Below, piece by piece: positions 27,657 through 63,174 of a stretch of 64,000 nt of DNA (the first letter of the stretch is position 1; every line of letters starts with the position of its first letter). Below the pieces are notes generated by a model that was not told the origin of the DNA, did no database searches, and was given only the letters and a program-made list of their open reading frames with translations. The position numbers and the translations under genes were made by a program. The stretch comes from Cheilinus undulatus (taxonomy: Eukaryota; Chordata; Actinopteri; Labriformes; Labridae): assembly GCF_018320785.1 (NCBI RefSeq), contig NC_054867.1, positions 32,243,855-32,307,854 on the forward strand, in the 5' to 3' direction.

Positions 27657-30600
27657 ATGGAGAACGGCACAGAGGGCAAGGACTTCTACGTCCCCATGAA
27701 CAACAGGACGGGGCTTGTGAGGAGTCCTTTTTATTATCATCAGTATTATTTGGCTGATCCATGGTTTTTCAAGTTTCTTGCTCTCTACATGTTCTTCCTG
27801 ATCTGCACTGGCTTCCCCATCAATTTTTTGACACTGTTGGTGACAGCGCAGAACAAGAAACTCCGGCAACCTCTCAACTTCATCCTGGTCAACTTGGCAG
27901 TGGCTGGACTTGTCATGGTGTTCTTTGGATTCACAGTGTGCTTCTACTCTTCTCTCATGGGATATTTCGCCATGGGACAGTTGAGCTGTGCCATTGAGGG
28001 ATTCATGTCCACCCTTGGAGGTAAAATATGAGTTATTTGCTGAATGCAATTTGTTTAACTGGTTGTTTAGCTCCATAAATCTCCTCATTAACAATATAAA
28101 TATTGGGCTGTTCCATTTTTCATATTTGTGAGACTCAATTTTGAAGATGGTTGCAGGACCCAAAAGCATTTATCATGCCTGCTTTTTCTTTCTCAACAGG
28201 TCAAGTGTCCTTGTGGTCACTTGTGGTTCTGGCTATTGAGAGATACATTGTGGTCTGCAAACCCATGGGTAGTTTCAAATTTACAGCCACTCATGCTTCA
28301 GCAGGATGTGCATTCACCTGGATAATGGCCCTATCCTGTGCTGTTCCACCCCTGGTTGGATGGTCAAGGTAGGCCAAAACAAAAACAAATACTAGGACAA
28401 CAACAACAACAAAAAAAAAAAACAACAGAAAAGGCACCCAAACAGCATGAACAATACCCTAACCACACAAGAATCAAAAAAGAAACTAAAACAGAATACA
28501 AACCTAGACATCATAAGATAACCAAGAAATCTTTAGTACCCAGACATTTAAAACATCACAAGAACCTAGACATCATAGGACATCATAAAACCTATACATC
28601 GAAAGAACTTAAACATCCTAAGAACCCAGTAATGATAAGACATCATAAAAACTCAGAAATCATAAGAACGTAGAGATCATAAGTATTTAGACATCATAAA
28701 AACCCTAGATATCAAAAGTCATCTAGGGTCCTTAAAATCATATGCATCTAGACATCTTCAGACAACATAAGAACCAAGACATGATAGGCACGCAGAAATC
28801 AAAAGACCTCATAAGAACCAAGACGTCCTAGGCAGCTACACCTCAAAATACATAAGAACCTGGACATCAAAAGATCCTAGTTATTATAAAACATTCAGAC
28901 ATAATAGAAGCCTAGACATAAGCACCTAGACATCATAAGTACCAAGACTTCTTTAGACATCATAAGTACCTAGACATCTTCAGACATCATAAGTACCTAG
29001 ACATTTTAACATATCTTAAAAGCCAAGATATCAAAAGACATCATAAAAACCAAGACATCAAAAGACTTTATAAGAAACTAGACATTAAAGCTCCATTCAA
29101 GAGACAAAAAAAGGACTAAAACTGCTTATTTCAGATTTCCACTCAAGCAGCTGACACAGTTCGCTCTTGTTTTCTCTGACGAAACCAACATCTTAAGCAG
29201 CTGATCAGATACACTGAGGTTGAAGAGCACATAGCTGGTAGTTGAAGGTTGCATTGCATTACAACACAGAGGCTTTCTTGGTGTAAAATGAAAGACTGAA
29301 AAAAAATGATCTTGCATACAATTGAGTCAGGATTGTTTTTGGGCCATTTTTTCCTTAAATACACTAAATCATGCAGAGAAAGTGTGCCAGTTTGTAGTGC
29401 TGCACAGCTTAGCTTCACCAAGCACATCATCCTTAAAGGCGCTCACTGAAATCTCTGGAGGCTAGTGCCACTACTATTGCCACAACTAAAATTGCCTTAT
29501 TCAAACAGCTTCAAAAATACAGAAATATCATTTTAATCCTGTTTTTAAGTAAATGTATGAGCATGTACACTCTCATGTTATATATCCCAGATCAAGATGA
29601 TGGAGCAAAGCAACTAATAGGGTCTGTCACCAAAGACACAGAGCAAGTTTGAGGAATTTCATCTGTAATGTACCCATGAGACTAAAGGTAACTGCTACTG
29701 GCAGTTTTAGGAATCAGTACAAAACCTAGATAAGAAGGCACTTTATGTAGAATGTAGAACTTTTTTTTTGCATTAGGAGATTGAGGCAATTGCAAGAATT
29801 TGAAAGAATTTCACTTGAACTTAAGATTCTTGGAAATTTATCACCAAAGAAAACAAAATACAATTTATAGCCAGCATCCAGCTTTTATTTCAAACCATCT
29901 TTTACCATCATCATCTAAAAATTGTTTTGAAACATATACCTCCTTCTGGTAATGGTGCTAGCTCACATCCTTTAGAGTGGTTGTGTCAGGTATGAAAATG
30001 ATCTGCTTGAGAAGAGAATGCAATTAATCTACATAAGGTTGAACTTTCAACATACAATTCTGTCTGTTCTCTTAGGTACATCCCTGAGGGTATCCAGGTC
30101 TCCTGCGGCCCTGATTACTATACTCTGGCCCCTGGCTACAACAATGAATCATATGTCATGTACTTGTTTACCTGCCACTTCATGGTTCCCGTTTTCACCA
30201 TCTTCTTCACTTATGGAAACCTTGTGTGCACAGTGAAGGCGGTAAGAGACACTGTGGTCCTGTTTACACTTTACATTATAGAGTCATTTTGGGCATTCAA
30301 ATACAAAGTGACTGCATTTTAGAACCACCATATTATGCGTTAACAATCCATCCTCCGTGATGATCTTTCATCAGAGCTTACTTGTCTGCTTGTTATGCAA
30401 ACACCAACCCTTACATCATTTATGTGTCTCTTACAGGGTTCAGTAGCCCTACATGCTGTTTGCCATGAAGCCACTGGCAGTACAAATGAATGGGGGGGGA
30501 TTTGGAAAAGAGTTAAGAAGCTTGTGGTGCCTCTTTAACAGCCTTTCTCTCTTATTTGTCGAAAAGATGCTTTTAAAGTACTGCAGCAGATAAATCTTGA

Positions 30601-32940
30601 TGGACACTAGTCAAGGCGAAGTGGCAACTGAAGTTGAGATGACAAGTTGCAGGTAAATTTGTGAACAAACCAGTTCTCAGTGCTAGCTCCTGTTCATTTT
30701 TATGTTGTTTTAGAGTTATAAAAAAGGCTAAATAGTTAATAGCTGTTTTGGAGCTTAAAGACAGACTTGTATTACTGACCTGAGATAAATCAACTGGATC
30801 TCTTAAAGGAGCCACAGTTCCCATCACTTTGAGCGAGGCTGGACGCACATTTATAAAGCTATGCTTTAGTTCAATGGTTCTCAACTGGTCCAGCCATAAG
30901 ACCCAACACCTCTTCTGTGATTTAAACTGTGAACAACATTTCTGATTGTTTTTGTAATATAATGAAAATTGTTTCACTTTTGATTTCAGATGGAACAAAA
31001 CATATGACTGAGAAGGGACAGACCAAAACTTTTGGAGGAGCATTTTATTTTGCTTTAATAATGTACATTTTGGTAACCTTGCAAAGCAGATGGATTTGCC
31101 CGTTTCTGTGTTTCTCACTGGTGAAGCCATCTTTGCAAAGCTCCCATCTGAACAGATCGAGCCCTGTAAGAAAGTGACAGGACCAATCAGAAGTAAGAGG
31201 CAGTACTTTTGGGCATGGCGGAGTCGTGATGTACACAAGCAGTGACAAGAGGCCAGTGCAATTATGGTGGAAGAGATGAGCATGGATGTTGCTATAGCAT
31301 CAGTTTTATCGGAACTTGATGACATTTCTTCGTTAAAAGAAGAACAAAGAACAGCATTGAGGTCTTTTCTTTTAAAAAAACGACAAAGTTGTGTACTGAC
31401 ATGTTTACAGTCGCAATGGTTCACGTTATGCAGTTCTCTATGGAGTTTAGTCCTCGGTAGTGGGGCACACCTACGACGTTAAATGTTTTGTTGCTTTGAT
31501 TGACCTATAAATACATGACAGACAGAATGTTCATCCAATCACCCCCCAAGTTTCAAAGGCTCTGCTCTTTTCCAAACACTGTCTATGGGAGGTTTTCCAG
31601 ATGGATGTGTGAAACAAATCCATCTGGTGTGTCAGGTTAACATTTCGGTGGATTTTCTTAAAGGTCTCAAGAAATTAAAGCATTTTGTGGGAAAACCAAC
31701 TTTGTTCAAGATATTTCAATATAAGACAACAGGATGCTTAGGTCAAGATCTCAAGAAACAACCATAATTTACTCCTTTACTCCTTTTCCAGCAATATAAA
31801 GAATATGGACACATGTCAGCCAAGGACTTCAGTCCTATCTGCACAATGGATATCCACAAGTTGAGAACCACTGCTTTAGTTTACAAGTGGACACTGCAGA
31901 TCACGTCAGTTGTGGGGTTGTTCTTCAGTGAGTGCCAGTGCATGTTGTGTGCATTGGTATCTGAATGCCCAAAATTAAAACTTAATGTATTGTCTAAATA
32001 TGATATCTTTTGAATTTTCAAGTTATTTTTAAGTGTATGGAGTACACTTAAAGTTTTTTTTTTTTTTTTTTTCAATAAGGAATCCTCTATACCCAGTGTA
32101 TGAGTATGTCTAATGATTCATATTTCCTTCATTTTCAGGCTGCAGCTCAGCAGCAGGACTCAGCATCCACCCAGAAAGCTGAGAAAGAAGTCACTCGTAT
32201 GTGTATCCTGATGGTCTGTGGCTTCTTGGTGGCCTGGACACCATATGCTAGCTTTGCTGCATGGATCTTCTTTAACAGGGGAGCTGCTTTCTCAGCCACA
32301 GCCATGGCTATCCCTGCCTTCTTCTCCAAGAGCTCAGCACTGTTCAACCCTATCATCTATGTGCTGATGAACAAGCAGGTCAGTTCAGTGCTGCTGAACA
32401 AGTTAATGACATGTTTCACTAGAATTCTCTAGTATTATGATTTCACTAAAAGTAATTCTAAAATAGATTTAAAAATCAAAATACCAACCATGACCCATCA
32501 GGTGTCTGTATTAGTAGAGACCCTTCTTTCTACTTTTGTTTTTGTTTTTTATGCCGCTGTGTTCATGCTGTTTCTGGCTGTCCTCAGTTAAGCCCTCAGT
32601 GTGTTGCTCAAATGCAATTATAGTGAACAGGGTGTTAGCGTAGCGCCCCTCAGGTGAATACACATTTCCAAGAAAAACTAATGGTACAAGTGAGCCATGG
32701 AGACAGCAGCCAGCGTCCCATATAATCCTGTTTTCTCTACCTTGAAGAACATTAAAAGGGAACCACTTGTACCGTTATCTCATTACCGTCAATGCCTATT
32801 GACGCCTCACTTTCTAATAATGAATTTTGCTTTGTTTTCAGTTCCGTAACTGCATGTTGAGCACTATTGGAATGGGTGGTATGGTGGAGGATGAGACCTC
32901 AGTATCTACCAGCAAGACAGAAGTGTCCTCTGTCTCTTAA
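27657..32940 (+). CDS. rh2b: RH2 green/blue-green cone opsin, RH2B-like copy 1
   Basis: Light-activated GPCR of cone outer segments. Exons 27657-28020, 28200-28368, 30076-30241, 32139-32378 and 32842-32940 have the standard vertebrate opsin phases and encode 345 residues. The start is ATG 27657 (MENGTEG). Bovine-numbered landmarks: glycosylation NRT, counterion E113, ERY 134-136, C110/C187, W265, FFSK with K296, and a C-terminal Ser/Thr-rich tail ending VSSVS. Tuning-site residues: Q122, A164, L207, F261, A292. Q122 with L207 matches the pair known from coelacanth RH2. Odd residues shared with copy 2 are Y25, H27, C94, Q107 and V185. Introns 2 and 3 are long (1.7 and 1.9 kb) because of a minisatellite and nested transposons. 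Poly(A) signal ATTAAA at 33280. The RH2B label is by resemblance; RH2C-like naming is possible. Confidence 0.95.
28480..29095. repeat. Degenerate minisatellite in intron 2 of opsin copy 1
   Basis: Many imperfect repeats of cataagaacctagacat and related forms (catcataagtacctagacat) fill this stretch. It is absent from the matching introns of the other opsins. Confidence 0.8.
29400..29530. repeat. Dispersed repeat, copy 2
   Basis: Diverged match to 1690-1850 (shared gccactactattgcca block). Lies in intron 2 of opsin copy 1. Confidence 0.45.
30872..31873. mobile_element. hAT-type element, copy 2, carrying a nested MITE
   Basis: Termini CAATGGTTCTCAACTGG and the inverted gttgagaaccactg, with a perfect 8-bp target duplication ctttagtt at 30864-30871 and 31874-31881. 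Located in intron 3 of opsin copy 1. About 575 of its 1002 bases belong to the nested element at 31074-31639 and its target duplication. Confidence 0.85.
31074..31639 (-). mobile_element. Novel-looking 9-bp-TSD MITE, copy B (nested in hAT)
   Basis: Reverse orientation relative to copies A and C. Begins TAACCTTGCAAAGCAGATGG and ends with the complement of TAACCTGACACACCAGATGG. Flanked by acattttgg (31065-31073) and acatttcgg (31640-31648), 9 bp with one mismatch. Near one end, ccagatggat and atccatctgg form a hairpin. Confidence 0.85.
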
Positions 32941-33309: not shown

Positions 33310-34135
33310 GTGTCTTTTTGGTGAAACTATCATGAAAAATGTATCTATCCCACTGCAACAACATGTTGAAGAAAGAAAATCTGGTTTAAATATTTGTAAG
33401 AGAATCCCACTGTAGACTGATCACAGGTTATTCTCTAGAAATTGGTTCTTAATCTTGGGAAACAAAACCTCTGCTTTGATAAAGGCTTCTGGAACAAAAA
33501 GTAGTCCATACTTTTGAAATCAGCCTCTGTTCATAGGCAGAAAATGAAACCCAAGACAGACAGTACAGGAGGCACAGGCAGCTCTTAGGCATGCAGAGAT
33601 TATGGGTAATGTTCAGCTAGGCCAGAGGGACTTTGGATCAGGGAAATCATTATGGAACAAAGTAGGTCTCAAAGATGCAAGGGGGGATGGTAATAGAGCA
33701 GGTAAGTAGACAGGGATAGCAACTCTGAGGCACATTCTTACAGTGTGTTAAGATCAGTCTGTCACAAAGTAGGTATCCTGTGTCTGGCGGCACTTCATGG
33801 TTTTGAAAAGTTTAGCTGTAGGAATATAAAGCATAAGGTGAGAGGTGAATGCAGGATGTTAGCAGGAAGAGAGTGGCAGTTCAGCTCATTTATGAGGGAG
33901 TGAAACTCAGAGGAGTCAGACGTCTGCTAGGCCAGTAAAAGGGTTCTAATAACTGAGATGCAGGTAGATTTAGGAGGGAAACTTGATATGCCACAGGAGA
34001 TAGTTTACACTAATTTGAGGCCTGACATAGTGCTACGGTCTTCCAGTCAGAGAATAATTTATTTAATAGAAATAATTGCTCCCCGGGAGGAAGCATATAA
34101 AATGTAAAAGCTTAGATATGGAGATTCAGGTTAGA
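33310..34135. other. Gene-free interval after opsin copy 1
   Basis: Nothing recognised apart from unique-looking sequence. Confidence 0.5.
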
Positions 34136-34139
34136 TATC

Positions 34140-34260
34140 AGCATTGTCATTTATTTATCAATTTATTTTTTTTTTTTACCTTCATTTAGCCAGGTAAGTC
34201 CCATTGAGATCAAAGATCTCTTTTTCAAGGGAGACCTGACCAAGAATGGCAGCAATGCAT
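34140..34260 (+). repeat. Dispersed fish repeat (first copy)
   Basis: Contains agccaggtaagtcccattga and agatctctttttcaagggag; a diverged copy lies at 47160-47265. Common in fish genomes, family not assigned. Confidence 0.55.
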
Positions 34261-34740: not shown

Positions 34741-37700
34741 ACTCAATTCAATTTCAATATTCAATTTGCTTTATTGGCATAAACAGATCAGTTACCGCCA
34801 AAGCAGTGTAAAAAAATGAAAATATATTAAATATTTACACATAATATAAATTTGCATTTTAAATAATTCCACAAATAATCAGTGTATAATGAAATAAATC
34901 TGATTAATTAGATAAAACAATATGAATAAAAAATAATACAAATTGACATAAATAAAAAGAAAAAATAAATACAATTCTGTGTGTTTGTTGAGAAGAGACT
35001 GAATGTCAGGAACCCTTTGTTTTTTCTGACTGCTGAATTCTTTCCTGATGAAAACAACTCATTGAGTTGTTATCATTCAGGGTAACTTCAGGATCTTATG
35101 GCAGATTTTGTAAAGCTTTGTATCTTTGTTCCTGCTTTTAGGACAGAAACAGCCAAGCCAGCAAATAATACAAGACAATCATCAGCATGCAGATGAAGAA
35201 ATCACTTAAATCCATGATTGTTTTCATACATGATAACATACTTTGTGTAAAATCTTATCTATATCTGAGATCTTACATTTGATTTGATATATTGATATAT
35301 TTAGCACAATTATACATTTTTGTGTTGAAAGTAATTATTTGTATAGCTCTTTAAGAAACCTCTAGGAATGGCAGTTGACATTTTTTCTTGACAAGTGCCC
35401 ATGGCAAGTGAAATTACGCCCATTGGGTGTGTTGGTCTTAATTTGAGATGTGGTCTGGCACGCAGAACATGACTGCACTATAAGCCAAATGAAACATGGT
35501 CTGAAGTGTGTGACTGATGACCGGCATAAATTGGCAAGTTCTCAACCAATTCAACTTATGTGTAAAACACACAAGTAGATGTACCACTGTACTCCTACTC
35601 CTCAGTTAAATATCACTACATTTGTAGATGCAGTCAAAAAAATGTTTTTCTGTCTGAAGCACCAACAAAGTGCAATGGTAACATAAGAACACAAGGAATA
35701 ATTATTCTGTCAAATGAATTGCTTATATTGGAGCTGTAACATGCCCACTACTCACCAAAATTTGCAAAAGTTAAAAAATGGTAGGAATTAGTGTTATTTT
35801 GTTGTTGCGCTTTAGTGTCATGAAAAAGGCTCCTTAGCGCCCCATTAGAAACAGCCCTTCCTATGAGTTTGCTAGCCATATGTGTCATGTCTAGACCTAC
35901 AAAAATATTGCAGATGGTCATGGCAGAGAATGTACAGGAATCTTGCTATTTACAGTTGATTTTAAGATTTTTGTCACCTTTGCAGAGTCTCATATTCAAT
36001 TTTTGGTTGAACAAACTCATCCTAGGAGTTTTCTCTGTCCCAGACAGAATATAGATAAGCCAACTTTGTCATTTCTAAATGTGTTTAAGTTTTGAATATT
36101 TCAAATTTGATTAAAAATATTGTGTGTGGCCTTAAGGGAAAAGCCCTGCAAATAGTGGATCATACTGTATGTAGATCAATAGAGGAGCTATTTAGTGATG
36201 ACTAGAATACCAACAAAAGCTTGTACATACCTAAATCTTAATGTTAAGACTTTGCAAGTTGTTGTAGTTCTGTATTTCATGTTTACTCATCTGCAAAGAT
36301 TTGTAAGTTTTTTGTCTTTAATATTATATACAACTTTTGGTTGTAGTAAAATGTTTAATTGGTTCATGGAAGGGCATAGGAGAAGTCTCAGGACGTGTTT
36401 GTAAGCTGTAAGCTGTTAGCTGTAAGCTGCCACTGGATACTTTGCATTCTCTCAGGAAAGTAGACCTACCTTCCAACTACGGACCGATCAGTTTTATTCT
36501 CAGTGGGTGAGTGTGTGGGGAAAATTGGTTTGGTGTTGATCCCAGTGAGTCTTCATCTTACTATTTTGCTTTCCCTGTACAGTCACAAATCCACTTTCCT
36601 AGCTCAGGACCTACGGGGGGGGGCTACACTAGGTTGTCTGTGATCAACTACAGGGGGCTGGATAGCTAGAGCTGAGAATAAAGGTGGGGTTTAGTGGTGT
36701 GGGGCAACGTTTCCTAAAGAGTTACCCTGTCCTCCAGAGATACAAAGAAGCTACATTTAATACACATACCATTATTGACAATGGAGGATGGGGAAAAACT
36801 GGCACATTGGGCAGGAGAGGCAGAACTATATGTACACTATATGTACACATAAACCCACATCAGCTATAAAATAGTAGTGATTAGTAGTAAAAAGAGTGAA
36901 AAATGTAACTGTAGCTCAGCTGAGGTGTAGAGAAACAACAACAGAGCAAACACACAAACAGGGAGTGTTGCAATACGCTCACCATGCGTCAGCCGTATTG
37001 AATCATGACTGTGCAGAATGTGATTTCCCTAACTGTATAAAATAACTTTAAATAAATACGATTAAGCTGAAATTATTATTAAAATCTGTGAACCACTTCA
37101 ATATCAGCACTCACTTCCTGCCCAGTAAAACTTCACTGAGTATAGAGCAGAGCATCTGAAGATGTGAAGGTGAAGGTCCTTTGTTGTCTATGCTTTTGAT
37201 GTTTTTAGCCATGTCTCTCAAAAATTCATGCACTGGATTTTTTTAGTCTGTAGTACTACGCTGTGCTTTGACATCATAACTCCAGGTGCCTGGAAACGCA
37301 TCAATTTATCATCCGTTAGCTCTGCAGATGAACGTTCTCCTTTGTTCTCATAAGCCAGGCAGAGTACCTTTGATCTTCTTTGCTTATGATTTTTGTATAT
37401 TTCATTTCACCACTATTTTAAAGATGTCTGAAATAATCATTGATAATCAAATAAATTAAATATTTATGTGATGGCAAACCGTCCTGGGGTTCCAGTTGTT
37501 TAGTTGCTTGCAGCCGCTAGAAGTTTACCTGTCTTTGCAACACAGCCAACACAGTTCAATGTTATTAATGTTTGTTGTTGCCTTTCTAAAATAACAAAAA
37601 CTTACCAAATAAATTACATTGGAACATTATCACTGTGATACTTTTGAGATGAACCATAAAAAGGATAAGTTAAATACAAATTATTTAACTTGAGAGAAAA

Positions 37701-38100
37701 TCCACATGAAAAATCAGTGATTTCCAAACTGTCACTAAATCAGCTGCTGCTTTGAAATCAAGCAATAAAAAGTAAAACAGAAATTTAATGAAAAAACAAA
37801 CAATAATTCATAATGTGTTGATTGTGTATACATGAATAGCAGTTAATGAATTGTGCACATGATGTATTAGTTGTTTGGTAAATATTGTACCAGTATTGCC
37901 AATTTTAATCAAAGAAGTTAGCGATAAAGATACAACTTTGGTTGGTAAAAAAATTGCAGAGATTTCACCAAAATAGGTCTGAAGTATTTGAACTCACTTG
38001 GACTCAAACTCACAAAAAACACTTGCAGAAAAGAGAGAGGGGGTCAGAATAAAAGCAAAGGTCCCTTGCTCCCTTCTTGCAGTTAATGACTATCCGGTGT
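34741..38100. other. Intergenic region upstream of opsin copy 2
   Basis: A caatttgctttattggcat repeat end lies at about 34763. The block 35480-36060 has a diverged counterpart at 47790-48260 upstream of copy 3 (for example tttgcaaaa, aatgtgtcatg and ttttctctg segments in the same order), suggesting the duplicated unit includes this flank. No gene. Confidence 0.45.
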
Positions 38101-38116
38101 TAGGATGATCTGCTGA

Positions 38117-38175
38117 GGATTACTTTAAACACATAATCTCAATCCTTCTATAATCCCCTTTTTGACCAGTATAAA
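38117..38175 (+). promoter_or_regulatory. Promoter module of opsin copy 2 (GGATTA / TAATCC / TATA)
   Basis: GGATTA at 38117, TAATCC at 38151 and TATAAA at 38170, 95 bases before the ATG. Spacings of 34, 19 and 95 bases are exactly those of copy 3. GGATTA/TAATCC is the CRX/OTX core motif of photoreceptor promoters. Confidence 0.65.
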
Positions 38176-38264
38176 GCCAATGCAGGAACCACTTATGAGC
38201 CACATAGGAGGGTCAGACAGTTCCTAGTTACCTTTGACACGGCAGGACCTCTCAATCAGAGAAA

Positions 38265-41200
38265 ATGGAAAACGGCACAGAGGGCAAGGACTTCTACGTC
38301 CCCATGAACAACAGGACGGGGCTTGTGAGGAGTCCTTTTTATTATCATCAGTATTATTTGGCTGATCCATGGTTTTTCAAGTTTCTTGCTCTCTACATGT
38401 TCTTCCTGATCTGCACTGGCTTCCCCATCAATTTTTTGACACTGTTGGTGACAGCGCAGAACAAGAAACTCCGGCAACCTCTCAACTTCATCCTGGTCAA
38501 CTTGGCAGTGGCTGGACTTGTCATGGTACTGTTTGGATTCACAGTGTGCTTCTACTCTTCTCTCATGGGATATTTCGCCATGGGACAGTTGAGCTGTGCC
38601 ATTGAGGGATTCATGTCCACCCTTGGAGGTAAAATATGGGTTATTTGCTGAATGCAATTTGTTTAACTGGTTGTTTAGCTCCTTAATTCCTTTGGCTAAC
38701 CATATAAATATTGGGCTGTTCCATTTTTCATATTTGTGAGACTCAATTTTGAAGATGGTTGCAGGATTGGAAGTATTTATCAGATCTTTGTTGTTTTTTT
38801 TCTCAACAGGTCAAGTGTCACTGTGGTCACTTGTGGTTCTGGCTGTTGAGAGATACATTGTGGTCTGCAAACCCATGGGAAGTTTCAAATTTACAGCTGC
38901 CCATGCTTCAGCAGGATGTGCATTCACCTGGATCATGGCCCTGTCCTGTGCTGTTCCTCCCCTGGTTGGATGGTCAAGGTAAGGCGATAGAACACTTTTG
39001 AGAGGCACGCTACTCACACACATTGGCCAAAACACACACATGCACAATTAGGACCAATGACTATGCAACACTGGAGAGATGCCAGAGCAAGGGACTGCAC
39101 ACAAGGGGGCTTGTTCGGGTTCGGTGCCACGCTTGGGGGCACGTCAGCATTTCTTTAAGTGAAACGGCACCTCCCTAAAAACTAGGGCAATTTATTGACT
39201 ATTCTATATCATATATGTAGTATGGGGTTTTCACTTTTATTTTGCATAAACAATGCTGATCAGTTCAAGAATTTTAGTCAGAGCTTTGTTCACAACCTGT
39301 CTGGCCAAGTACCTGCTCATGTTTCCTCTCCATATGTGACCAAAATTTGCCATTCACTTAACAAAGAAAGTAGTCAGAGAGTTTGATGTAGAATGAGAAA
39401 AACAAACTGAATGACTCTGATACAATCATAGAGAACGCTCCAGAGGGATTAGTTGCACATCAGGAGAGGGAGTACGGCTGCAGCTGTAACACAATCTTAA
39501 GAGACCATCTGCGATCTTATAACCAACATACAAGTTTTTATCTCAAACCATCTTTAACTATCATCATCATCAGCACACATCCTCTAGAGTGACTGGCTCA
39601 AAACATGTCTGAAAATGCATGCCATCAGGCTCAGTGGTACCAGTGCATTATTTCTGAGTCCCCTTAAAGCCATTAATTATTAAGCTACTGCAGCCGTGCA
39701 ATCTTGTAGTTTTTTGCAGGCAGTGTGGAGAATGTCTGACTCTCTTTGAAGTGGTTATCTGCTTAGAAACGGTGTATGCACGAAACCTACATAGTGCTGA
39801 ACTTGTAGAGAGTAAGCTCCATAACTTTTGACAAATTCTAAAGCCATTTTGACCCAAGACAGTTTATATTCAGCCCCTGATAATTAACTATGTAGTCTAG
39901 TTTATCTTGTGAAGGGGCAGCCGCTTAAATAAAAAGGGAACTTAGTCCAAAAATGTTTGAAAATCAAACTGCACCTGTCCTTCAAGAAAGCTATCCAGGG
40001 CCCACTTTATGCTTTGCATATAATTAAAATGCCTTTATTTTGCATGGCAAAATGCATTTTAAAAAAGCGGACATTTTGCGAACTACACGTGTTCATCAAG
40101 GCCATTGTGGCTTGCACATTTTTATAAAGATTTTTGGATTGAACCCTCGCTTTTACCCATGCAACTAACCCTTCACAAGAACAACGAATCAAAGCAATGC
40201 CAAAGTTTCCATAGAGCTCCTTCATGTCACTCAACATAGACCCTACAGAGCTTCCACTCTTTTCTCTTAACTACATTGTCTGCTTCAGTTTTATCAGTTT
40301 ACCATCATTGAAACCTATAGGTGATCTCAGGTTCTGAATTGAGTTCTAGCTTTATTTGAATCCTCCCACTCTTAACAATTTTTAATGCAACCTCAACACT
40401 ATCATTGTGAAATAACATGATCTACTGTATAATTTACTTTTGGTAACATGTATCCAACATCCTGTCTGTCCTCTTAGGTACATCCCTGAGGGTATCCAGG
40501 TCTCCTGTGGTCCTGATTACTACACCCTGGCCCCTGGCTACAACAATGAATCATATGTCATGTACATGTTCACCTGCCACTTCTGTGTTCCCGTTTTCAC
40601 CATTTTCTTCACTTATGGGAACCTTGTATGCACAGTGAAGGCGGTAAGAGACACTGTTTTAACTCACATAAAGTAATCATTAAGTGAATGGAGTTCACAG
40701 TTTTTTTTTTTTTTTTCCAAATAAGAAGTCATCTATCGCCAAGAAGAACCCAGTATGAACAGTGATGAATATTTCCTTCATTTTCAGGCTGCAGCTCAGC
40801 AGCAGGACTCAGCATCCACCCAGAAAGCTGAGAAAGAAGTCACACGTATGTGCGTCCTGATGGTCTGTGGCTTCCTCTTGGCTTGGACACCATATGCTAG
40901 CTTTGCTGCATGGATCTTCTTCAACAAGGGAGCTGCTTTCTCAGCTACATCCATGGCTATCCCTGCCTTCTTCTCCAAGAGCTCAGCACTGTTCAACCCT
41001 ATCATCTATGTGCTAATGAACAAGCAGGTCAGTTCAGTGCTGCACAAACTACAGGAATTGATCAGTCAAAATCCCCTTCACCAAGAGCTTCAATAGAGCT
41101 TACTTGACTATGGTTTCCTTGTTTGAGAACTGTTTATTTTGGTGTGTTTATGAACTAAAAAAGCTAAATACAAATACAAATCCTGTGAGACAGCCACAAC

Positions 41201-41366
41201 CTGTCAAGCAAAGTGTGGCTGTAGGCTGGATAACTGATATAACCCTCTCCATCCTTATCCCCTTTAGTTCCGTAACTGCATGCTGAGCACTGTTGGCATG
41301 GGTGGCATGGTGGAAGATGAGACCTCAGTATCTACTAGCAAGACAGAAGTCTCCTCTGTCTCTTAA
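38265..41366 (+). CDS. rh2b: RH2 cone opsin, RH2B-like copy 2 (mosaic gene)
   Basis: Exons 38265-38628, 38810-38978, 40478-40643, 40788-41027 and 41268-41366; 345 residues starting MENGTEG and ending VSSVS. Functional residues E113, ERY, C110/C187, W265 and K296 are present; tuning sites Q122, M207, F261, A292. Exon 1 is almost the same as copy 1 (4 differences in 364; one amino-acid change, L88 for F88, bovine numbering), so it shares the unusual Y25, H27, C94 and Q107. Exons 4-5, the 3' UTR and the promoter instead match copy 3. This is read as gene conversion or unequal crossing-over inside the array. Poly(A) signal ATTAAA at 41790. Confidence 0.95.
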
Positions 41367-42850
41367 GGACAAAAACTTCACACCTGCAGACATCCTTCTT
41401 CCTGGTGTCTTCCTGATCCTGAATGGCTGTCTTCAAGTGGAAATAACCAAATGGAAACCAGGTTATGACCCTGTCTACAACAAATGGACATTAATTTGAG
41501 CATACATGCTTATTTCAGCATTTTACTGTGCACATTTTGATTTTTTTTGGTGTGATGCAAAAAAAAGATCCCTAGCATCACACAAGCAACAACAGAAAGA
41601 GAAACAACAGAACATCTTTGAAACACAGCCTGATGCATTTTCTTGTAATTAACATGATGGTATGTCTGAATGTGCCAGCTGATGATTGTTGGGTGATTGT
41701 ATATTTATGACATGGAGAGGTCAACATATTTGTTGGCCTCTGTCATAATATTCTGTACATATTTTATAAACAAAGAGTAGAGATAACATATTAAATGCAT
41801 GCATTAAAGACATTTTGCTTGTTTTGTTTCATTTAGATTTAGCAGGGACCTGTTTTTGAGCTTGATTCCACCTACCCTAGAGAATGTGGCAAGAGAAAAA
41901 CATTGCTCTTAAAACTTCTACAAGGAAAGTAAAATAAAAACTAATAAACACTCTGTCAGCAAGATTTAATAAGGCCAAAACATATTTGGGATGTTTTGTA
42001 GATAACTTTCACAAAAGTTGCAGAGATACTTCAAAACTACCGTTATTCTCTACATTTGCCTTGATAACTGGGCAAGTAGACTCGTGTATTATGTATTATA
42101 TTGTAATTACAAATTACCAAATTGTGCAGCACTAGTTTTGCCTGTGGATATGGCTAAATGGCCCAGCAGTACCCCTTACCTGCTGCATGATGAGTCCAGG
42201 GTTGTGTAATATACCTTCAGCTGAGTGAATCTAGTTAACTTCAACATTTACTGCCCCAGTAGAAGAGAGCTTGTAGAAATAATGTCATTCAACTTGTGTA
42301 CACAACCTAAAGGGTGTGACTATGGCTGCCCCTCAGGGTCTGATGTCTTTTTAATCTTATTTCAAGGCTCCTTCCTAGATAAATTATTGAGAAGTATTAT
42401 TGGTTATTCTGAACCAGTCTAAAGATGTTACAGAGTTCATAGAGATCTTTAAAAAAGAGAAATTCCTCCACTTCCAAAATGAAATGTTTCTGTGACAGCC
42501 TAAACAATGTTTTGAGTGTATTTAATACCATAAACATATTTATATATGCATCCCTCTCTCTCTAACAGGGGGGTCACATTATTATGAAAATGACATTTTA
42601 CTCTTATTGTTTAGGGTTTGTCATGTTGTTTTATTCAGGATTCACCTGTGTAGCCCTGAAGGTAATTCATGCTTGCCGGGAGCAGAGACATGCACATCAG
42701 GATCAGGAAGTGATGTCACAGAAGTAAACAGAGTGTTAGAAAAACGAATTTGTCTTTTATCCTAATCCTTTAATGTTAGGTTTTGGACTCTGACAGAGGA
42801 CTCAGCTGCTGCTCTCTAACTTTCTTGTTGGGAAAATGTAGCACTTGATC
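41367..42850. other. 3' UTR and flank of opsin copy 2
   Basis: About 41367-41950 matches the 3' UTR and flank of copy 3 (52083-52680) closely. The rest shows no gene. Confidence 0.6.
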
Positions 42851-43689: not shown

Positions 43690-44604
43690 ACGCTGTGGTT
43701 CAATACAATTATAGTGAACAGGGTGTTAGTGCAGCACCATTTAGACTGAGAACACATTTCCAGGAAGACACTAATGGTATAAGTGAGCCACAGAGACAGC
43801 GCCAACTTTAATCATAATCCTACTCCCTCTGCCTTGAAGAGCATAAAAAACTCACTGTTTTCTAACTTATCGTCAATGCCACTGATGCCTCACTTCTTAT
43901 CATGAATTTTGCTGTAATTGGTTCCATATTTGCATGTTGAGCACTTTTGCAGGGGGTGGTATTATGGCAGAGACCTCATTAGCTACCAGTAAACATCAGC
44001 GCCCTCTGTCTCTTAAACCCAGACGAATCTTATTAACTCTAGTGGATTTTCCAAATGAACTTTTGACAAGTATAAACAGACAGCTTATCATTCCGTTTCA
44101 AACATTTGGATCTCTTGGATCTTTCTCTGCTGCAGTGATTCCTTAAGTTGGCCCCATGGCCCTCAAAGAGGCTCAAAGTCGTCTCACAAAGTAAATTTTG
44201 TGAGACAACTTTCAAGTCAGTGAAGGGCTAACAGTTTATACCAGACATCATTGCTACTAAAAAAAAAACAGAAAAGAAAGTGTGATGGGTCAGTTCTCAC
44301 TTTTGACTTCATCTGTTTCTTAATCAGTATTAAAGGGAGAGCCAAACTTCATCATTTTACCACATCTTATCAACATTAGATAGTTTTTTCTTAGTGTTCA
44401 TCAGTACACATTTATGATGTGTATGGTGAGGGTTGGGGGCCTTGAAAAGATTTCCATGTGTGAAAGGGGGCCCCATCAGAAAAAGACTGAGAAAGAGGAC
44501 TGTGAGGTTTGGATCACTCGAGTAATCGATCCAGCCTGGCCCTGTTAGTGCCAAGATGGATCTTCACTTATTTTTCTTCTGCGATTTTGATTATTATTAT
44601 TATT

Positions 44605-44635
<31 letters not shown>

Positions 44636-44690
44636 TTTTGTAAATTTTGGTCATTAAATGCATACATATAATCTGTCTGTGTCTTGGTTA
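43690..44690 (+). pseudogene. RH2 opsin relic 1: intron 4, exon 5 and 3' UTR only
   Basis: Aligns in order with the 3' end of opsin copy 1. About 43700-43920 matches intron 4 (attatagtgaacagggtgtt shared). 43922-44016 matches exon 5, with a lost AG acceptor and net 4-base loss, and still ends ctctgtctcttaa. About 44017-44690 matches the 3' UTR, including a gtcattaaatgcat poly(A) region. Exons 1-4 are missing. A (TTTA)n run at 44600-44640 has expanded inside it. It cannot encode an opsin. Confidence 0.85.
44600..44640. repeat. (TTTA)n microsatellite
   Basis: About nine ATTT units after a short ATT run, within the 3' UTR-derived part of opsin relic 1. Confidence 0.9.
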
Positions 44691-44739
44691 AATTACAAAA
44701 ATACAAATTAGTAGACAGAGACAGTAGGTAGCACTTTTT

Positions 44740-46608: not shown

Positions 46609-47638
46609 CATTGTAAGAAAAAAATAAGTTGAGCTTACTTTAAAAAATGATGGAAACTCATTGCCTCAGAAATAACAAGTAAACTACCCTTGACTTTTGT
46701 GAGTTTAAAAACCTTGTTTGTTAGTGGTGTGCAGTACTTGTTCTACTTGAACTATTTAAGTATTCACTACTAGTTTAAAATCAATTATTTTAAGTTCTCA
46801 CAACTGAGATTCAAATTTTAATTTAAGTTTGCAGGACTTAGCCTAAATCATCTACTTTGAGTGTGCAATACTTCATATTTTTAGTGCATTGTAAACCCTG
46901 ATAAGTTCCTGGCACTCAGAATATCTTAGATAACTAATTATCTTTGAACATAAGCTAGCACGCTCTGTTCAAGTTTTGTTACTTATTATTTCATCTAAGG
47001 TGGACTATCTTGTACCACCATTTGCAACAATGGCTGTTAGTGACCTCCCTTGTTGATGACAGTGTGCCTTACAATTTTCATTAATGCTCTTAACAATGAC
47101 AGACTCCTATGGGCGGGACATCTTTAATTGAGACAGCAACTTCACTCATGGTGCATTGTATTTATTCATCTTATTTCACCTTTTTTTAACCAGGAGAAAA
47201 CCTCATTGAGATTAAAAATCTCTTTTTCAAAAGGTGCCTGGCAAAGACAGCTGCAGCAAACAGAGTGCATAAAGGTTTAGTGCCCAAAGGCATTCTGGGA
47301 AAACTGCAGATTTGCCATAACTCAAATAATATGAGTTATAACAAAAAATACTTAAATGGTTTGAGTACTGTTCACTTAAAACTGAAATAAGTTCTATCAG
47401 CTCATAAAGATAGAGTTCAAATTGCTGTTTTGGATTTTTAAGTTAACACAAGTTAATTATACCCCCTTTTTACTTAATTTTTTTAAACTAAGTAAACTTC
47501 AGTAAATTGAGCCCCTTTGCTGTTATGGCCAAGAAGTACAATTAACTTGTTTGTAATAAGTATTTAGAACAGGTTAAGAAGAACTGAGTAATTTAAACTC
47601 AATGTTTATGAGTAAAATAGATGTTGCTTTTTACAGTG
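46609..47638. mobile_element. Probable element inserted in the tandem array
   Basis: Left edge gcattgtaagaaaaa and inverted right edge cactgtaaaaagcaac resemble the CACTGTAAAAA-type ends of fish MITEs; array sequence lies on both sides. Contains a dispersed repeat at 47160-47265 related to 34140-34260. Confidence 0.45.
47160..47265 (+). repeat. Dispersed fish repeat (second copy)
   Basis: Contains cctcattgagattaaaaatc and tctttttcaaaaggtgcctg, a diverged match to 34140-34260. Confidence 0.55.
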
Positions 47639-47789: not shown

Positions 47790-48260
47790 GAGTATTGAGT
47801 GGTCATTGGAGTAACTGGTATAAACTGGCAAGTTTAAGATGCAAACCCACTAAATTTGATCCAAACATACAATTTGGATGCTGATACAGTTAAATTTAAG
47901 TTATTCTGGTCTGAAGATCAAGGCAGCACAACAGCTCTTATCATTCTCACATTGATTGCTTATTTGGAGACTTGCCAATATTTGCAAAAAGGTTCAAATG
48001 TGGTAGAAATTTGAGGTTTAGTGTTTTTTGTGCTTGTGCCTCACTACATGGCTCCATTGCACCCCCTATGGGTGGGGGTGTAGTAACTAAATGTGTCATG
48101 TTAAGACATTCAGAGAATTCTTGGAAGTTGATGGCGAAAAATGTACAAGAAGCTATGTTCATTTTACTGTCAAATGTTATTATTTTCCACAATCATGACG
48201 TTCATATTTTCATGAACTTGTCCTAGAGGGTTTTCTCTGGTTAAGTGCAGACTTCTTAGG
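47790..48260. repeat. Duplicated flank upstream of opsin copy 3
   Basis: Diverged, same-order match to 35480-36060 upstream of opsin copy 2, with similarity seeming to resume near 49140-49200 versus 36110-36150. Supports duplication of an opsin unit together with its upstream DNA, unless both are copies of an unrecognised repeat. Confidence 0.45.
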
Positions 48261-49506: not shown

Positions 49507-49595
49507 GCCAATACCGAGACCACTGGGACCACATAGGGTATTCAGACGGTTCCTGGCTATACTTCACCCAGTAGGACCCACCATCCAGAGTGAAA

Positions 49596-52082
49596 ATGGA
49601 GAACGGCACAGAAGGCAAGAACTTCTACATCCCCATGAACAACAGGACGGGGCTTGTGAGGAGTCCTTTTGAATATCCACAGTACTACCTGGCTGACCCA
49701 ATGGTTTTCAAGCTCATGGCCTTCTACATGTTCTTCCTCATCTGCACTGGATTCCCCATCAATTTCCTGACACTGTTGGTCACAGCCCAGAACAAGAAGC
49801 TCCGGCAACCTCTCAACTTCATCCTGGTCAACCTGGCTGTGGCTGGACTCATCATGGTCTGCTTTGGCTTCACCATGACCTTCATCACTGCTATTAATGG
49901 CTACTTCATTTTTGGACCAATGGGCTGTGCCATTGAGGGATTCATGGCTACTCTTGGAGGTATGAATATAGACCTTTGCAACTGTCTTATTGTTTCTTTT
50001 GTGAAGAAAATTCAATTTTTTATGGTAATGCAACATACTCTGAAACAACTGCAATCATAACCTTTTTTCCTTCTCATTGACTTCAAGGTCAGGTCAGTCT
50101 CTGGTCCTTGGTGGTCTTGGCTGTTGAGAGATACATCGTCGTCTGCAAACCCATGGGAAGCTTCAAGTTCACTGGAACCCATGCAGGAGCTGGAGTTGTT
50201 TTCACCTGGATCATGGCCATGGCTTGTGCTGCACCCCCTCTGGGTGGCTGGTCCAGGTAATTTAGATCTCAAATGTTTCCTGCAGCTATTTGGTTATATT
50301 CAGAAAATACAGAATTATCATTTGGGTGTCTTTGATTACATCTAGTTAAGTCAATTAAGGGGCCTCCTGTCTTCCAGCCATCCTCTTAAGGTGCAGGAGG
50401 GCCAGACCTGATGGTCTGAGCATGTTGAATTGGATAAAAAGATAAATTTAGTGACTCTACACTCTTAACTCTAACAGGATGTTTTATGGCTGGGAGTGGA
50501 CAGGGGGGTCAGGCATGACAGCTCATTCTAAGACCTAGATGGAGAGTCCTTTACATTTGCTGGTTGTGCTTACCCATAATAGATTAAGACTTTAACTTGA
50601 GGTCAGTAATAAACAAGCAAGAAAGAAATGCATGTAGCCACATGAATGAAACCATATGCAAGCTATGAACTGGTAGCTTTGCTGTCATACACAATTTCAA
50701 TGTCAGCCCTGTACTCTGTGTGCAGGTTACTATATGTAGTCTTTTCTTTAAAAAAGAAGTTTAAAAGCATCATTCACCTTCTCTTGTTCATCCATATCTG
50801 GTGATAAACGTGGCAAAATAATCACTGCTAGTAAGAAAGTAGTTGCTTATAGGCTGTAAAATTGCTCAGTATCCACTTTTTAATGTTTTTAAGACTAACA
50901 TTACAACTCAAATGTGAATTCATGCTAGTTTGCATATCCAAATATCAATATCACATTTCCTTCCCCAAGCTCATTCATTCTGCAGTGCTGAAGGATTTCC
51001 TCTGCTCTCATCCAACAGATACATCCCCGAGGGTCTGCAGTGCTCATGTGGACCTGACTACTACACTATGGCTCCAGGCTTCAACAATGAATCATACGTC
51101 ATGTACATGTTCACCTGCCATTTCTGTGTCCCAGTTGGCACAATCTTCTTCACCTATGGAAGCCTTGTGCTCACAGTCAAAGCTGTAAGTATTAGCCTTA
51201 GCTGTTCTATATTCTAAACAGTGCTTTAACCAGTGCTATGCCGGGTTTACCCACCTATTTCTGACAATGACATATTCTTATTATCTCTGTATCTGCTTTT
51301 GATCAAAAGACAATTAAGTCAGAATGATAATTTTTCTGTCTTGATAAAGATAATTTTTCCAAAGAAATGTTACCTATTGAAATATTATAGTAAAAGTAAT
51401 ATATATGTTTTTTTCTTATTTTTGCCTAGCTTACTCTTTTACTCTGCTATTCACTGAACATTTGATTGGTTGTGTGGGCAGTGTTTTCTGAAGCTCTTCA
51501 TAACCTCTGTCTGTGGGATACATTTCAGGCTGCAGCTCAGCAGCAGGACTCAGAGTCCACCCAGAAAGCTGAGAGGGAAGTCACACGTATGTGCGTCCTG
51601 ATGGTCTTTGGCTTCCTCTTGGCTTGGACACCATATGCTAGCTTTGCTGCATGGATCTTCTTCAACAAGGGAGCTGCTTTCTCAGCTACAGCCATGGCTA
51701 TCCCTGCCTTCTTCTCCAAGAGCTCAGCACTGTTCAACCCTATCATCTATGTGCTGATGAACAAGCAGGTCAGTTCAGTGCTGCATAAACAAGTATAGCT
51801 GTAGGAACTCATTTCCTACAATATAAGTTAATTCATGGAACCAAATAGCATTTTTCCTTTTTTTGGATAGCTGTTTTTGTTATGATGAGCAAGATAGCAA
51901 AGTAGCATGTGAGACAGCCAAAGTGTGAGTTTAATCTGGGTATCTGTTTTAAACCTCTTTATCTTTATCCCCTTCAGTTCCGTAACTGCATGCTGGGCAC
52001 TGTTGGCATGGGTGGCATGGTGGAAGATGAGACCTCAGTATCTGCCAGCAAGACAGAAGTCTCCTCTGTCTCTCAAGGTTAA
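49596..52082 (+). CDS. rh2b: RH2 cone opsin, RH2B-like copy 3
   Basis: Exons 49596-49959, 50088-50256, 51019-51184, 51529-51768 and 51978-52082; 347 residues. Has the usual RH2B N-terminus ([13 protein letters not shown]) and first extracellular loop ([10 protein letters not shown]), so it looks like the least altered forward copy. E113, ERY, C110/C187, W265 and K296 are present; tuning sites Q122, M207, F261, A292, and C185 retained. The TAA that ends copies 1, 2 and the RH2A gene reads CAA here, so the protein runs on two residues (VSSVSQG) to the next TAA. Its 3' UTR matches copy 2; poly(A) signal ATTAAA at 52503. Expected role: mid-wavelength cone pigment. Confidence 0.96.
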
Positions 52083-54537: not shown

Positions 54538-54599
54538 ACAGCATTAAAAAAAGGATGACCGCAGAGTCTCGAGAGAATGAACATATCAATAGATTCAAA

Positions 54600-55610
54600 C
54601 AGAGTCCAATGCTGTCTGCCTCTGAGGTAAAACACACATCCAGAGGAGTGAGGTCTTTAGTCCTGGATGTGTGAGTGTGCTCTCTAGTCTGCAGGGGATG
54701 GTGTTTGTAGTTGTGATTAAGGCTTGGATGTTTGAGAGGTTAAATCAAGTAGGATTTAGAAGTTATCTTCCAACAAGGAACAAAGTGCACAAAGAGTTAT
54801 AGACAGCAGCACATTTATGCCATTTAGAAAACCTCAATATAGTGTTTGTGTTGTTCTTATAAAAGAGAAAAGTTTTGTTCCAAAGGAAAAAGTAACCAAA
54901 AAGTTAAACTTTTGTCTCGTCAGTCCACAGAATATTTCTCCAAAAGTCTTGGGGATCATCAAGATGTTTTTTGGCAAATGTAAGACGAGCCTTTGTGTTC
55001 TTTTTTGTCAGCCTTGGAACTCTCCCATGATACCATTTTTACCTAGTGTCTTTCTTATGGGTGAGTCATGAACTCTGACCTTAACTGAGGCCAGTGAGGC
55101 CTGCAGGTCTTTGGATGTCGTTCTGAGTTCTTTTGTGACCTCCTGGATGAGTCGTTGCACTCTTACAACCAAAATACCACATTGTTGCGCAGCTATATAT
55201 AGCAATGTGGCATTTTGGTTAGATTCAGGGTCATAAACAGTTTGGATGATAATCAGGTCCTTGTTGATTTTCAATAAAATCAATCAGGGTACCTTCTATC
55301 ACCCAGCCGTCCTCTCAAGATACAGGAGGGCCAGACTTGCTGCTCTGAACATGTTGTACTGGATAAAAAGATAGCAATTCTACGGTCTGGCCTCTAATAT
55401 AAGCTATAAGCTTGTCTGAGTGGAGCTACAGGGGGTGAGCAGGAGGGTCAGGCACTACAGCTACTACAAAGACTTAGATGGCAGTCCTACACACTGGCTC
55501 CCTACACTTACCCAGAAAGAATTAAGTCTTCCAGTCAGGAACAATAAGGCACACAAAAAAATCATGTTGCCACACAAATAAAAGCTGATGCAAATATTTA
55601 TCCACCAGGT
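54600..55610 (+). pseudogene. RH2 opsin relic 2: upstream flank and intron 2 fragment
   Basis: About 54630-54890 matches the upstream flank of opsin copy 3 (about 48820-49115; shared gtgattaaggcttggatg, acaaagtg). About 55280-55600 matches intron 2 of copy 3 (about 50345-50670; shared aggagggccaga, tggataaaaagata, cacttaccca-like segment). Order and strand are conserved. The part that should hold promoter, exon 1 and exon 2 is replaced by Tc1-like sequence at about 54900-55275. No exon is left. Confidence 0.7.
54900..55275 (-). mobile_element. Tc1-like transposase fragment
   Basis: Minus-strand translation contains RTTSKDLQASLASVKVRVHD, the helix-turn-helix region of Tc1-like transposases, followed by IRKTLGKNGIMG and, in another frame, degraded downstream sequence. 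It sits within opsin relic 2. Confidence 0.7.
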
Positions 55611-61604: not shown

Positions 61605-63174
61605 TTAAGATACAGAGGACACTTCTGTCTTGCTTGTGGAAACTGAGGTCTCATCCTCCACCATGCCACCCATTCCAATAGTGGTCAGGATGCAGTTACG
61701 GAACTGAAAGGGATAAAGATAAACATTAGTATGCAAAGTAAACTATTGTAAGTTTAAAAAGAAAAGACAGCACAATATTCTAGTGAACTAACCTGTTTGT
61801 TGAACAGCACATAGATCACAGGGTTGTACAATGCTGAGCTCTTTGCAAAGAAGGCAGGAATAGCTGCTGTCAGAGCGGTGAAGGCGGCACCCTTGTTCAT
61901 GAAGATCCAAGCGCTGAAAGTGGCATATGGTACCCAGGCTACCAGGAAGCCAAACACCATCAGGATGCACATACGTGTGACTTCCCTCTCAGCCTTCTGG
62001 GTGGACTCTGACTCCTGCTGCTGAGCGGCAGCCTAAAGGGTTTTACACCAAAAATACTCCATTATAATTCATGTTCTTATTCATGTCACACTTCTGCAGA
62101 ACTTAACATGGTGTTCCTTGAGGTTAATCAATAGTTAAACATTTCACTTACAGCTTTGACAGTCAGGACGAGGCTTCCATATGTGAAGAAAATGATGAAC
62201 ACTGGGAGGAAGAAGTGCACCACAAACATGTAAATGACATATGATTCATTGTTGAAGCCTGGAGCCAGAGTGTAGTAGTCGGGTCCACAGGAGCACTGCA
62301 TTCCCTCAGGGAGGTACCTGTGTTGAGGGATAAGACACTTAAGTATTTACAAAGTGCTTCACTGCTACACTATAACTTCCATAAAGCTTTAGAGTTTAAG
62401 AGATACACTGAAAGATATTGCGAGTAATCATGAATGAAAGTCACCTGGACCAGCCGAACAATGGGGGTCCAGCACATGAGAAGGCCATGATCCAAGTGAC
62501 AAGAACTCCAGCCCCTGCATGAGCACCAGTGAACTTGAAGCTTCCCATGGGTTTGCAGACGACGATGTATCTCTCAACAGCCAGGACCACCAAGGACCAG
62601 AGAGCGACTTCACCTGCAGGGCAAACAAGGCAGTAAAAGACACAATTTAGATGTGTAAAAAAATTCAAATGAATGTCCAAGATATCTTTGTTGAGTCTGC
62701 TCTTCCAAATGGTTTGTTCCTACTCTGTACTAAAGGTTAACGAAAAGAAAAAATTTAAACAAAATCCAGGACTGAAGTTGACTTGATACCTCCAAGTGTA
62801 GCCATGAATCCCTCAATGGCACAAAAAGTTGGTCCAAGAATGAAGTAGCCATTGACTGCAGATGTGATGGTGATGGTGAATCCAAAGGCGCACATGATGA
62901 GTCCAGCAATAGCCAGGTTGACCAGGATGTAGTTGAGAGGTTGCTGGAGCTTCTTGTGCTTGAAGGTTACAAACAATGTCAGACCGTTGATGGGGGTTCC
63001 AGTACAGATCAGGAAGAACATGTAGAAAGCCAGAAGTTTGTAGATCATTGGATCTACCATGTAATACTGCGGATATTCATAAGGACTTCTAACAATCCCA
63101 GTCCTGTTGGACATGGGGATGTAGAAATTCTTCCCTTCTGTGCCATTTGGTTCAATGCCTCCTTCCCACACCAT
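61605..63174 (-). CDS. rh2a: RH2A green-sensitive cone opsin (inverted)
   Basis: Minus-strand exons 63174-62790, 62613-62445, 62317-62152, 62032-61793 and 61703-61605; 352 residues. The N-terminal [14 protein letters not shown] extension is typical of percomorph RH2A, seven residues longer than the RH2B type. E113, ERY, C110/C187, W265 and K296 are present; tuning sites E122, M207, F261, A292. Glu at 122 predicts longer-wave absorption than the Gln-122 copies. Introns are only 89-176 bases, the most compact gene here. It is transcribed towards the forward copies (tail-to-tail with copy 3). Ends VSSVS. Confidence 0.97.

Follow-up and report, generated by a model that had tools for sequence, protein, structure and literature searches.

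A mosaic RH2 opsin gene on a duplicated backbone, probably converted by its upstream neighbour

Introduction

Non-allelic gene conversion is a known process in opsin arrays, and the medaka RH2B/RH2C pair is one described case (available text of PMC3514295). These head-to-tail RH2 paralogues form an intron-level mosaic, in which introns 3 and 4 are highly similar and introns 1 and 2 are divergent. Here, we describe a well-resolved new example, copy 2 of a tandem array of five RH2-type opsin genes in a fish. Four of these genes lie in the window C3:32243855-32307854 (the whole stretch of 64,000 nucleotides analysed, part of a 57-Mb sequence in a 1.17-Gb genome of 46 sequences), and the fifth is found just downstream, at L009:4227-5727. 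The array resembles the medaka pair in its head-to-tail paralogues and intron-level mosaic. However, it is the 5' part (introns 1–3) that was exchanged here, both outer flanks are of the type of a third gene, and the backbone can be seen to be duplicated and to contain a relic exon. The tilapia RH2A paralogues provide another intron mosaic in an RH2 cluster, with introns 1 and 4 highly similar and introns 2 and 3 relatively divergent, for which the authors propose either intronic conversion with the exons remaining distinct or purifying selection on the introns (available text of PMC3514295). In copy 2, by contrast, the exons were transferred along with the introns.

Conversion among duplicated RH2 genes is also marked in a figure for Pacific bluefin tuna (Nakamura et al., as cited in the accessible part of PMC5686071), a species with five RH2 genes (PMC8186084, in the part at hand). 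As here, segmental conversion between opsin paralogues moved tuning sites in damselfish sws1, but that gene encodes a UV opsin rather than an RH2 pigment, and a promoter mismatch is not described in the available sections of PMC11874681. Exchange between tandem opsin genes is likewise reported for the human red and green opsins (excerpt of PMC3514295), and the gene conversion treated in the accessible part of PMC4763219 concerns taste receptors, not RH2. We met no account of the present locus in the literature, in a search that was made without a species name and therefore carries little weight.

Copy 2 is unusually readable, as the introns and flanks have diverged enough for each segment to be assigned, and the relic exon reveals the duplicated backbone. 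The best fit to its structure, which we consider probable, is a duplicated copy-3-like backbone that was later converted by copy 1 in at least two exchanges.

Mosaic structure of copy 2

The five copies of the array are the following:

27657..32940, + strand: copy 1 (Q122, L207), the likely donor, with an unrelated promoter and 3' untranslated region (UTR) of its own
38265..41366, + strand: copy 2, the mosaic RH2 opsin, with exons at 38265-38628, 38810-38978, 40478-40643, 40788-41027 and 41268-41366
49596..52082, + strand: copy 3 (Q122), which is the sister of copy 2 on the evidence of flanks, intron 4 and 3' UTR
61605..63174, − strand: copy 4 (E122, RH2A-like), which served as outgroup
L009:4227-5727: copy 5 (E122, RH2A-like)

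The 5' flank, intron 4, exon 5 and 3' UTR of copy 2 are of copy 3 type, and the interval from the ATG to early exon 4, including introns 1–3, is of copy 1 type. This mosaic is confirmed, and noncoding DNA, introns foremost, is the decisive evidence for it. The segments and switch points are:

37963..38264, + strand: copy-3-type 5' flank and promoter of copy 2 (alignment and motif spacing)
38265..38282, + strand: left switch interval, from copy-3-type to copy-1-type, no more than 18 bp from the ATG (copy-3-type bases run up to just upstream of the ATG, and the earliest copy-1-type site is 38282)
38265..38682, + strand: block of putative recent conversion between copies 1 and 2, spanning exon 1 and the first part of intron 1 (5/418 positions differ)
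38683..40835, + strand: older copy-1-type block, with the rest of intron 1, exon 2, intron 2 (short pieces alignable), exon 3, intron 3 and the start of exon 4
40566..40586, + strand: small copy-3-type patch in exon 3, codons 207–213 (M207, C213; 5/6 informative sites)
40836..40874, + strand: right switch interval in exon 4, from copy-1-type to copy-3-type (last copy-1-type sites at 40835 and 40867, first copy-3-type sites at 40844 and 40875)
40875..41928, + strand: copy-3-type 3' part, with the rest of exon 4, intron 4, exon 5 and the 3' UTR

Introns were compared after trimming of the splice consensus bases, for 10 pairs of copies per intron, each set against 100 shuffles. Copies 1 and 2 reached a z score of 69 in intron 1, with the nine other pairs between −1.0 and 1.3. 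The same pair stood out in intron 2 (z = 14 over 52 columns; copies 1 and 3, 4.4 over 25 columns; remaining eight pairs ≤1.2) and in intron 3 (z = 18; other pairs ≤2.4). For intron 4 the highest value was that of copies 2 and 3 (z = 12), compared with 0.4 for copies 1 and 2; copies 3 and 4 (4.4) and copies 1 and 3 (3.6) were aligned over ≤20 columns each, and the rest gave ≤1.6. Outside the coding region, the 5' flank of copy 2 (37963-38264) aligned to 49302-49595 of copy 3 with 214 matches and 63 mismatches, and the 3' UTRs of these two copies aligned with 490 matches and 65 mismatches. BLAST yielded no match between copies 2 and 1 upstream of the ATG, and the 3' UTR of copy 2 had no match in copy 1. 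The initial annotation, made from the sequence alone, had likened the promoter and 3' UTR of copy 2 to those of copy 3 and placed the abrupt start of the similarity to copy 1 at the ATG, and both statements are borne out by these alignments.

Its per-exon counts were also reproduced exactly: copies 1 and 2 differ at 4/364, 10/169, 12/166 and 12/240 positions in exons 1 to 4, respectively, and copies 2 and 3 at 7/240 (exon 4) and 4/99 (exon 5; 3/96 once the stop codon is left out). In exon 5, copies 1 and 2 differ at 7/99 positions. The coding sequences provided 306 polymorphic columns of 1035 for tests with 20,000 permutations (P values uncorrected for 10 pairs). The longest run of identity between copies 1 and 2 covered 75 of the 306 polymorphic columns (columns 9-263, P = 0.00015). 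Runs with a P value of 0.00005 each were found for copies 2 and 3 (34 sites, exon 4), copies 1 and 3 (22 sites, exons 4–5) and copies 4 and 5 (56 sites, from exon 3 into the beginning of exon 4); the run of copies 3 and 5 had a P value of 0.006, and the five remaining pairs were not significant. The maximum chi-square split fell at columns 747-756 (61.1, against a permutation maximum of 27.1), with copy-1-type and copy-3-type sites in a ratio of 123:13 to the left of the exon 4 breakpoint and 3:16 to the right of it. Run and chi-square permutations thus put the mosaic beyond chance. A scan for the exon 3 patch, which was picked post hoc, gave P = 0.011 within exon 3 and P = 0.0023 over exons 1–3. 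Copies 4 and 5 likewise have the M207 of this patch, and so does an intronless rhodopsin (RH1) from another chromosome, C11, which was used as an extra outgroup.

Exon 1 of copy 2 is 99% identical to that of copy 1, with a 257-bp stretch without any difference, and such identity might be produced by an assembly chimera, copy 2 being a computational join of copies 1 and 3. However, beyond the recent block, the divergence of copy 2 from whichever neighbour is closer amounts to ~3–7% in exons and ~11–23% in introns and flanks, with indels, and copy 2 is therefore a copy of neither; the window contains no N and lies inside a 57-Mb sequence. We consider a chimera highly improbable. Protein-level selection, rather than conversion, is a fainter prospect still as the cause of the near-identity, although opsin exon 1 codes for functional helices. 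Silent and intronic sites have been kept as well: third positions of copies 1 and 2 differ at 3/121 in exon 1 and at 16/112 in exons 2 and 3 (P = 0.0013), and there is one difference in the first 54 nucleotides of intron 1. Furthermore, exon 1 of copy 3 differs from that of copy 1 at 60/364 positions. The pattern in copy 2 is that of gene conversion, with a tract common to two paralogues, another affiliation on both sides of it, and silent and intronic sites homogenised together with coding sites.

In the trees inferred for exons 1–3, a grouping of copies 2 and 3 was rejected outright (log-likelihood gap of 129.5). In the exon 5 tree this grouping was preferred, with a value of 0.084 in the approximately unbiased (AU) test for copies 1 and 2 and a bootstrap value of 37 for copies 2 and 3. 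According to the initial annotation, a single consistent topology across the exons would refute the mosaic. The topologies do differ (copies 1 and 2 together in exons 1–4, copies 2 and 3 in exon 5), but the 3' switch is weakly supported by them. With the coding trees undecided, the case for the 3' switch is made by intron 4, along with the 3' UTR and the duplicated flanks.

Tandem duplication behind copies 2 and 3

Copies 2 and 3 descend from a tandem segmental duplication, with ~20% noncoding divergence. The gene tail, spacer and promoter form a collinear chain, in which the interval between copies 1 and 2 corresponds to the interval between a relic and copy 3. The features concerned, together with a second remnant, are:

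43694..44695, + strand: decayed copy-1-type exon 5 (43922-44016, gapped relative to copy 1) with the end of intron 4 and the 3' UTR, matching 32602-33329 of copy 1 in two pieces
47970..48239, + strand: spacer preceding copy 3, with a paralogue at 35750-36037 ahead of copy 2 (E = 5e-14)
54582..55593, + strand: remains of a further copy-3-type gene, in which 54582-54884 resembles 48783-49115 upstream of copy 3 and 55214-55593 resembles 50289-50661 in intron 2 of copy 3

The promoter match of the chain joins 37963-38300 with 49302-49631 (E = 5e-48), and two weaker matches are in order (34161-34255 with 47160-47259, and 36074-36142 with 49121-49189). Two short, low-scoring matches near 34.1 and 44.6 kb fall out of the chain order. 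A reversed-sequence control gave one 30-bp match (E = 0.002). The mismatch rates are alike along the chain (tail against relic 0.186 and 0.191, spacer 0.213, 5' flank 0.227, intron 4 0.191), which fits one duplication. The initial annotation had recognised the mosaic, but overlooked this background of tandem duplication and relic exon 5. No exons were found in the 54582-55593 remnant by tblastn with the proteins of copies 1–3, at E values of up to 1.

Order and likely direction of the exchanges

The introns of copies 1 and 2 differ at 41/333 positions (0.123), compared with 149/699 for copies 2 and 3 in the flank, intron 4 and spacer (Fisher P = 0.0004); addition of the poorly aligned end of intron 2 (12/48) brings the former to 53/381 (P = 0.003). 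The lower divergence between copies 1 and 2 indicates that their exchanges are later than the duplication. Exon 1 and the first 54 nucleotides of intron 1 contain 5 differences in 418 positions, compared with 40/279 in the remainder of intron 1, an internal stretch of intron 2 and those parts of intron 3 that could be aligned (Fisher P = 2.8e-12). This young block is far less diverged than the other introns of the pair, which argues that copies 1 and 2 exchanged DNA at least twice. Four of its five differences are coding position 6 and a cluster of three at codons 87–88.

The recombination behind the mosaic may be reconstructed as follows. Tandem duplication of a segment consisting of a copy-1-type tail, the spacer and a copy-3-type gene would have placed copy 2 after copy 1, followed by the relic copy-1-type exon 5 and then copy 3. 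Non-allelic gene conversion from copy 1 to copy 2, which are ~10.6 kb apart, would then have overwritten the body of copy 2, exons and introns alike, between the ATG and the first part of exon 4. The tract would end at the ATG on the left because the homology of the two genes stops there, and inside the conserved exon 4 on the right. A second, much younger conversion (~1% divergence, compared with ~12% in the older introns) would have homogenised exon 1 and the beginning of intron 1 anew. The initial annotation had suggested conversion of the 5' coding part into a copy-3-like gene. Conversion into such a gene remains the best fit, but the tract extends beyond the 5' coding part to introns 1–3 and the start of exon 4, more than one event is indicated by the two levels of divergence, and copy 3 is itself an imperfect reference in exon 2.

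Unequal crossing-over could also have made a hybrid gene: the tandem duplicates and the relic tail attest to duplication in the array, of which unequal exchange is a usual cause. The human red and green opsin genes, which are far less diverged, often form hybrids by unequal crossover. However, one crossover leaves one switch, and copy 2 has two (at the ATG and in exon 4), with the same outer partner on both sides, which makes this origin quite improbable. Fusion by a deletion from the ATG of copy 2 to a lost copy-1-type gene was dropped as a candidate, since the 3' end of copy 2 would then be of copy 1 type.

The direction from copy 1 to copy 2 is favoured by parsimony, on the sequence comparisons made here. 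Copies 2 and 3 are ~20% diverged outside the tract, so their native introns 1–3 should align too, yet they fail to do so. Entry of copy 1 DNA into copy 2 would account, with a single donor, for both the outer alignment of copies 2 and 3 and the mismatch of introns 1–3. Copy 3 might instead be the changed gene, if the ancestral body of copies 2 and 3 was of copy 1 type and copy 3 later took exons 1–3 from an RH2A-like gene, such as copy 5. Exon 2 of copy 3 is indeed nearest to copy 5 (15/169), and at 69/103 scored sites of exons 1–3 copy 3 has the base found in copies 4 and 5. However, introns 1–3 of copy 3 match neither copy 4 nor copy 5 above shuffles, and no intron donor is therefore seen. 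The exon 1 and exon 3 trees reject neither copy 3 beside copies 1 and 2 nor copy 3 beside copies 4 and 5. As the introns shared by copies 1 and 2 are younger than the duplication, a later exchange between these two copies would be needed anyway. Intron 2 of copy 3 is also kept in the relic at 55214-55593, so a recent foreign arrival in copy 3 is unlikely. On balance, we regard a change in copy 3 as an unlikely origin of the pattern.

Several observations nevertheless weigh against conversion of a copy-3-like gene by copy 1. The maximum-likelihood tree of exon 4 joins copies 1 and 2, with copies 2 and 3 disfavoured (AU value of 0.041), and the trees of exons 4–5 leave the groupings of copies 2 and 3 and of copies 1 and 2 unseparated (AU values of 0.245 and 0.745, respectively). 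Many of the copy-3-type sites of exons 2–4 are changes private to copy 1, and because several such sites lie in exon 4, the closeness of copy 2 to copy 3 in this exon is weaker than the raw counts. Intron 2 of copies 1 and 2 is alignable in just two short pieces, and the mismatch rate of the copy 2 and copy 3 3' UTRs (0.117) is below that of the rest of the duplicated segment. The divergence of the copy 3 relic does not differ significantly from that of the copy 2–copy 3 duplication (157/647 and 149/699, P = 0.22), and the relic thus lends the direction weak support. Finally, the 69 agreements of copy 3 with copies 4 and 5 are among 103 sites of exons 1–3 at which the common state of copies 1 and 2 differs (scored where copies 4 and 5 are identical).

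Possible exchanges involving copies 3, 4 and 5

With an exon 2 that is nearest to that of an E122 gene, copy 3 itself appears to be no clean reference. This exon (50088-50256) differs from copy 5 at 15/169 positions, from copy 2 at 38 and from copy 1 at 43, and its first codons retain the Q122/S124 type. The distances suggest a conversion from an RH2A gene to copy 3. The trees do not establish it, as a tree with copy 3 beside copies 1 and 2 stands unrejected, and the P value of 0.006 for the run of copies 3 and 5 is that before correction for 10 pairs. Exon 3 of copy 4 (62152-62317) and of copy 5 (L009:5018-5183) differ at 1/166 positions, compared with 5–14% in the other exons. The introns of these two copies gave no alignment above shuffles, although an exon-anchored BLAST alignment passes through them. 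To judge from this contrast, exon 3 was probably the subject of an exon-sized conversion between oppositely oriented genes. Trees of whole RH2 coding sequences would blend such histories, and caution is required as RH2A/RH2B/RH2C assignments are affected.

Copies 3 and 5 have in common a shifted stop codon (52070-52082; L009:5715-5727), adding two residues (SVSQG), which is not present in copies 1, 2 and 4. A second version of the region upstream of copy 4 (63387-63798), 71% similar to it, lies in the same + orientation between copies 4 and 5 (L008:6986-7410).

Promoter and pigment of copy 2

Three OTX-like sites (−148, −131 and −114) and a TATA box (−95) are present in the promoter of copy 2. 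In copy 3, OTX-like sites at −148 and −114 and the TATA box at −95 occupy positions identical to those in copy 2. Copy 1 has no OTX-like pattern in 400 bp and a TATATA at −101. At least three OTX-like patterns occur in 2.8% of the 400-bp stretches of the window.

Between the copy 1 and copy 2 proteins there are 10 differences in 345 residues, including F88L and L207M. Residues 122 and 207 are RH2 tuning sites (accessible parts of PMC5686071 and PMC8186084), as is residue 88 (PMC9080752, in part). Copy 2 therefore likely encodes a copy-1-type pigment, altered at residues 88 and 207, behind a copy-3-type promoter, and the mosaic may have changed expression or colour sensitivity. Because the homology ends at the ATG, conversion would have placed the pigment behind the promoter of the other gene. 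It is possible, but we suggest it only tentatively, that this amounted to a regulatory swap, in which a copy-1-type, RH2B-like pigment came under the promoter and 3' UTR of another RH2 gene and was then fine-tuned at residues 88 and 207. If so, this fish would have a pair of similar pigments expressed under separate programmes, for example at different life stages or in different cone types. The locus offers a natural test of promoter versus coding sequence in opsin expression.

Gene identity and neighbouring features

Copy 2 has an intact reading frame of 345 aa, with Pfam matches to 7tm_1 (3.1e-47) and Rhodopsin_N (1.3e-22). The reading frames of all five copies are intact, and all 20 introns, four per copy, are GT-AG. 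K296, E113 and C187 are present in 5/5 copies, and C110, of the C110–C187 pair, is visible in the alignment. The five-exon/four-intron structure contrasts with that of the intronless RH1-like gene on C11. Residue 122 is Q, as in RH2B, in copies 1–3 and E in copies 4 and 5. The blue-shifting E122Q substitution has been assigned to the Rh2B ancestor (PMC5686071, in part), but Q122 by itself is also found in other RH2 types (PMC5686071 and PMC8186084, in part).

The array is flanked upstream by a sodium:neurotransmitter symporter (SNF) exon at 2237-2509 and downstream by MARVEL-like exons at L010:4522-5557, the latter below the Pfam cut-off. SNF-symporter and MARVEL-like genes are neighbours of the RH2 cluster in other teleosts, a setting that the present array would fit. 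Another opsin-like locus, with weak matches only, is found on C2 (L012).

Intron 2 of copy 1 contains a degenerate array of self-similar stretches (28480-29122), which partly explains why this intron is longer than in the other copies. An inverted pair of 77% similar sequences, at 31074-31557 (inside intron 3 of copy 1) and 56508-56994, is probably a dispersed mobile element. A dispersed repeat family, with pieces that are 86–94% similar, is represented at 53916-54463, 22975-23265 and L010:6183-6736.

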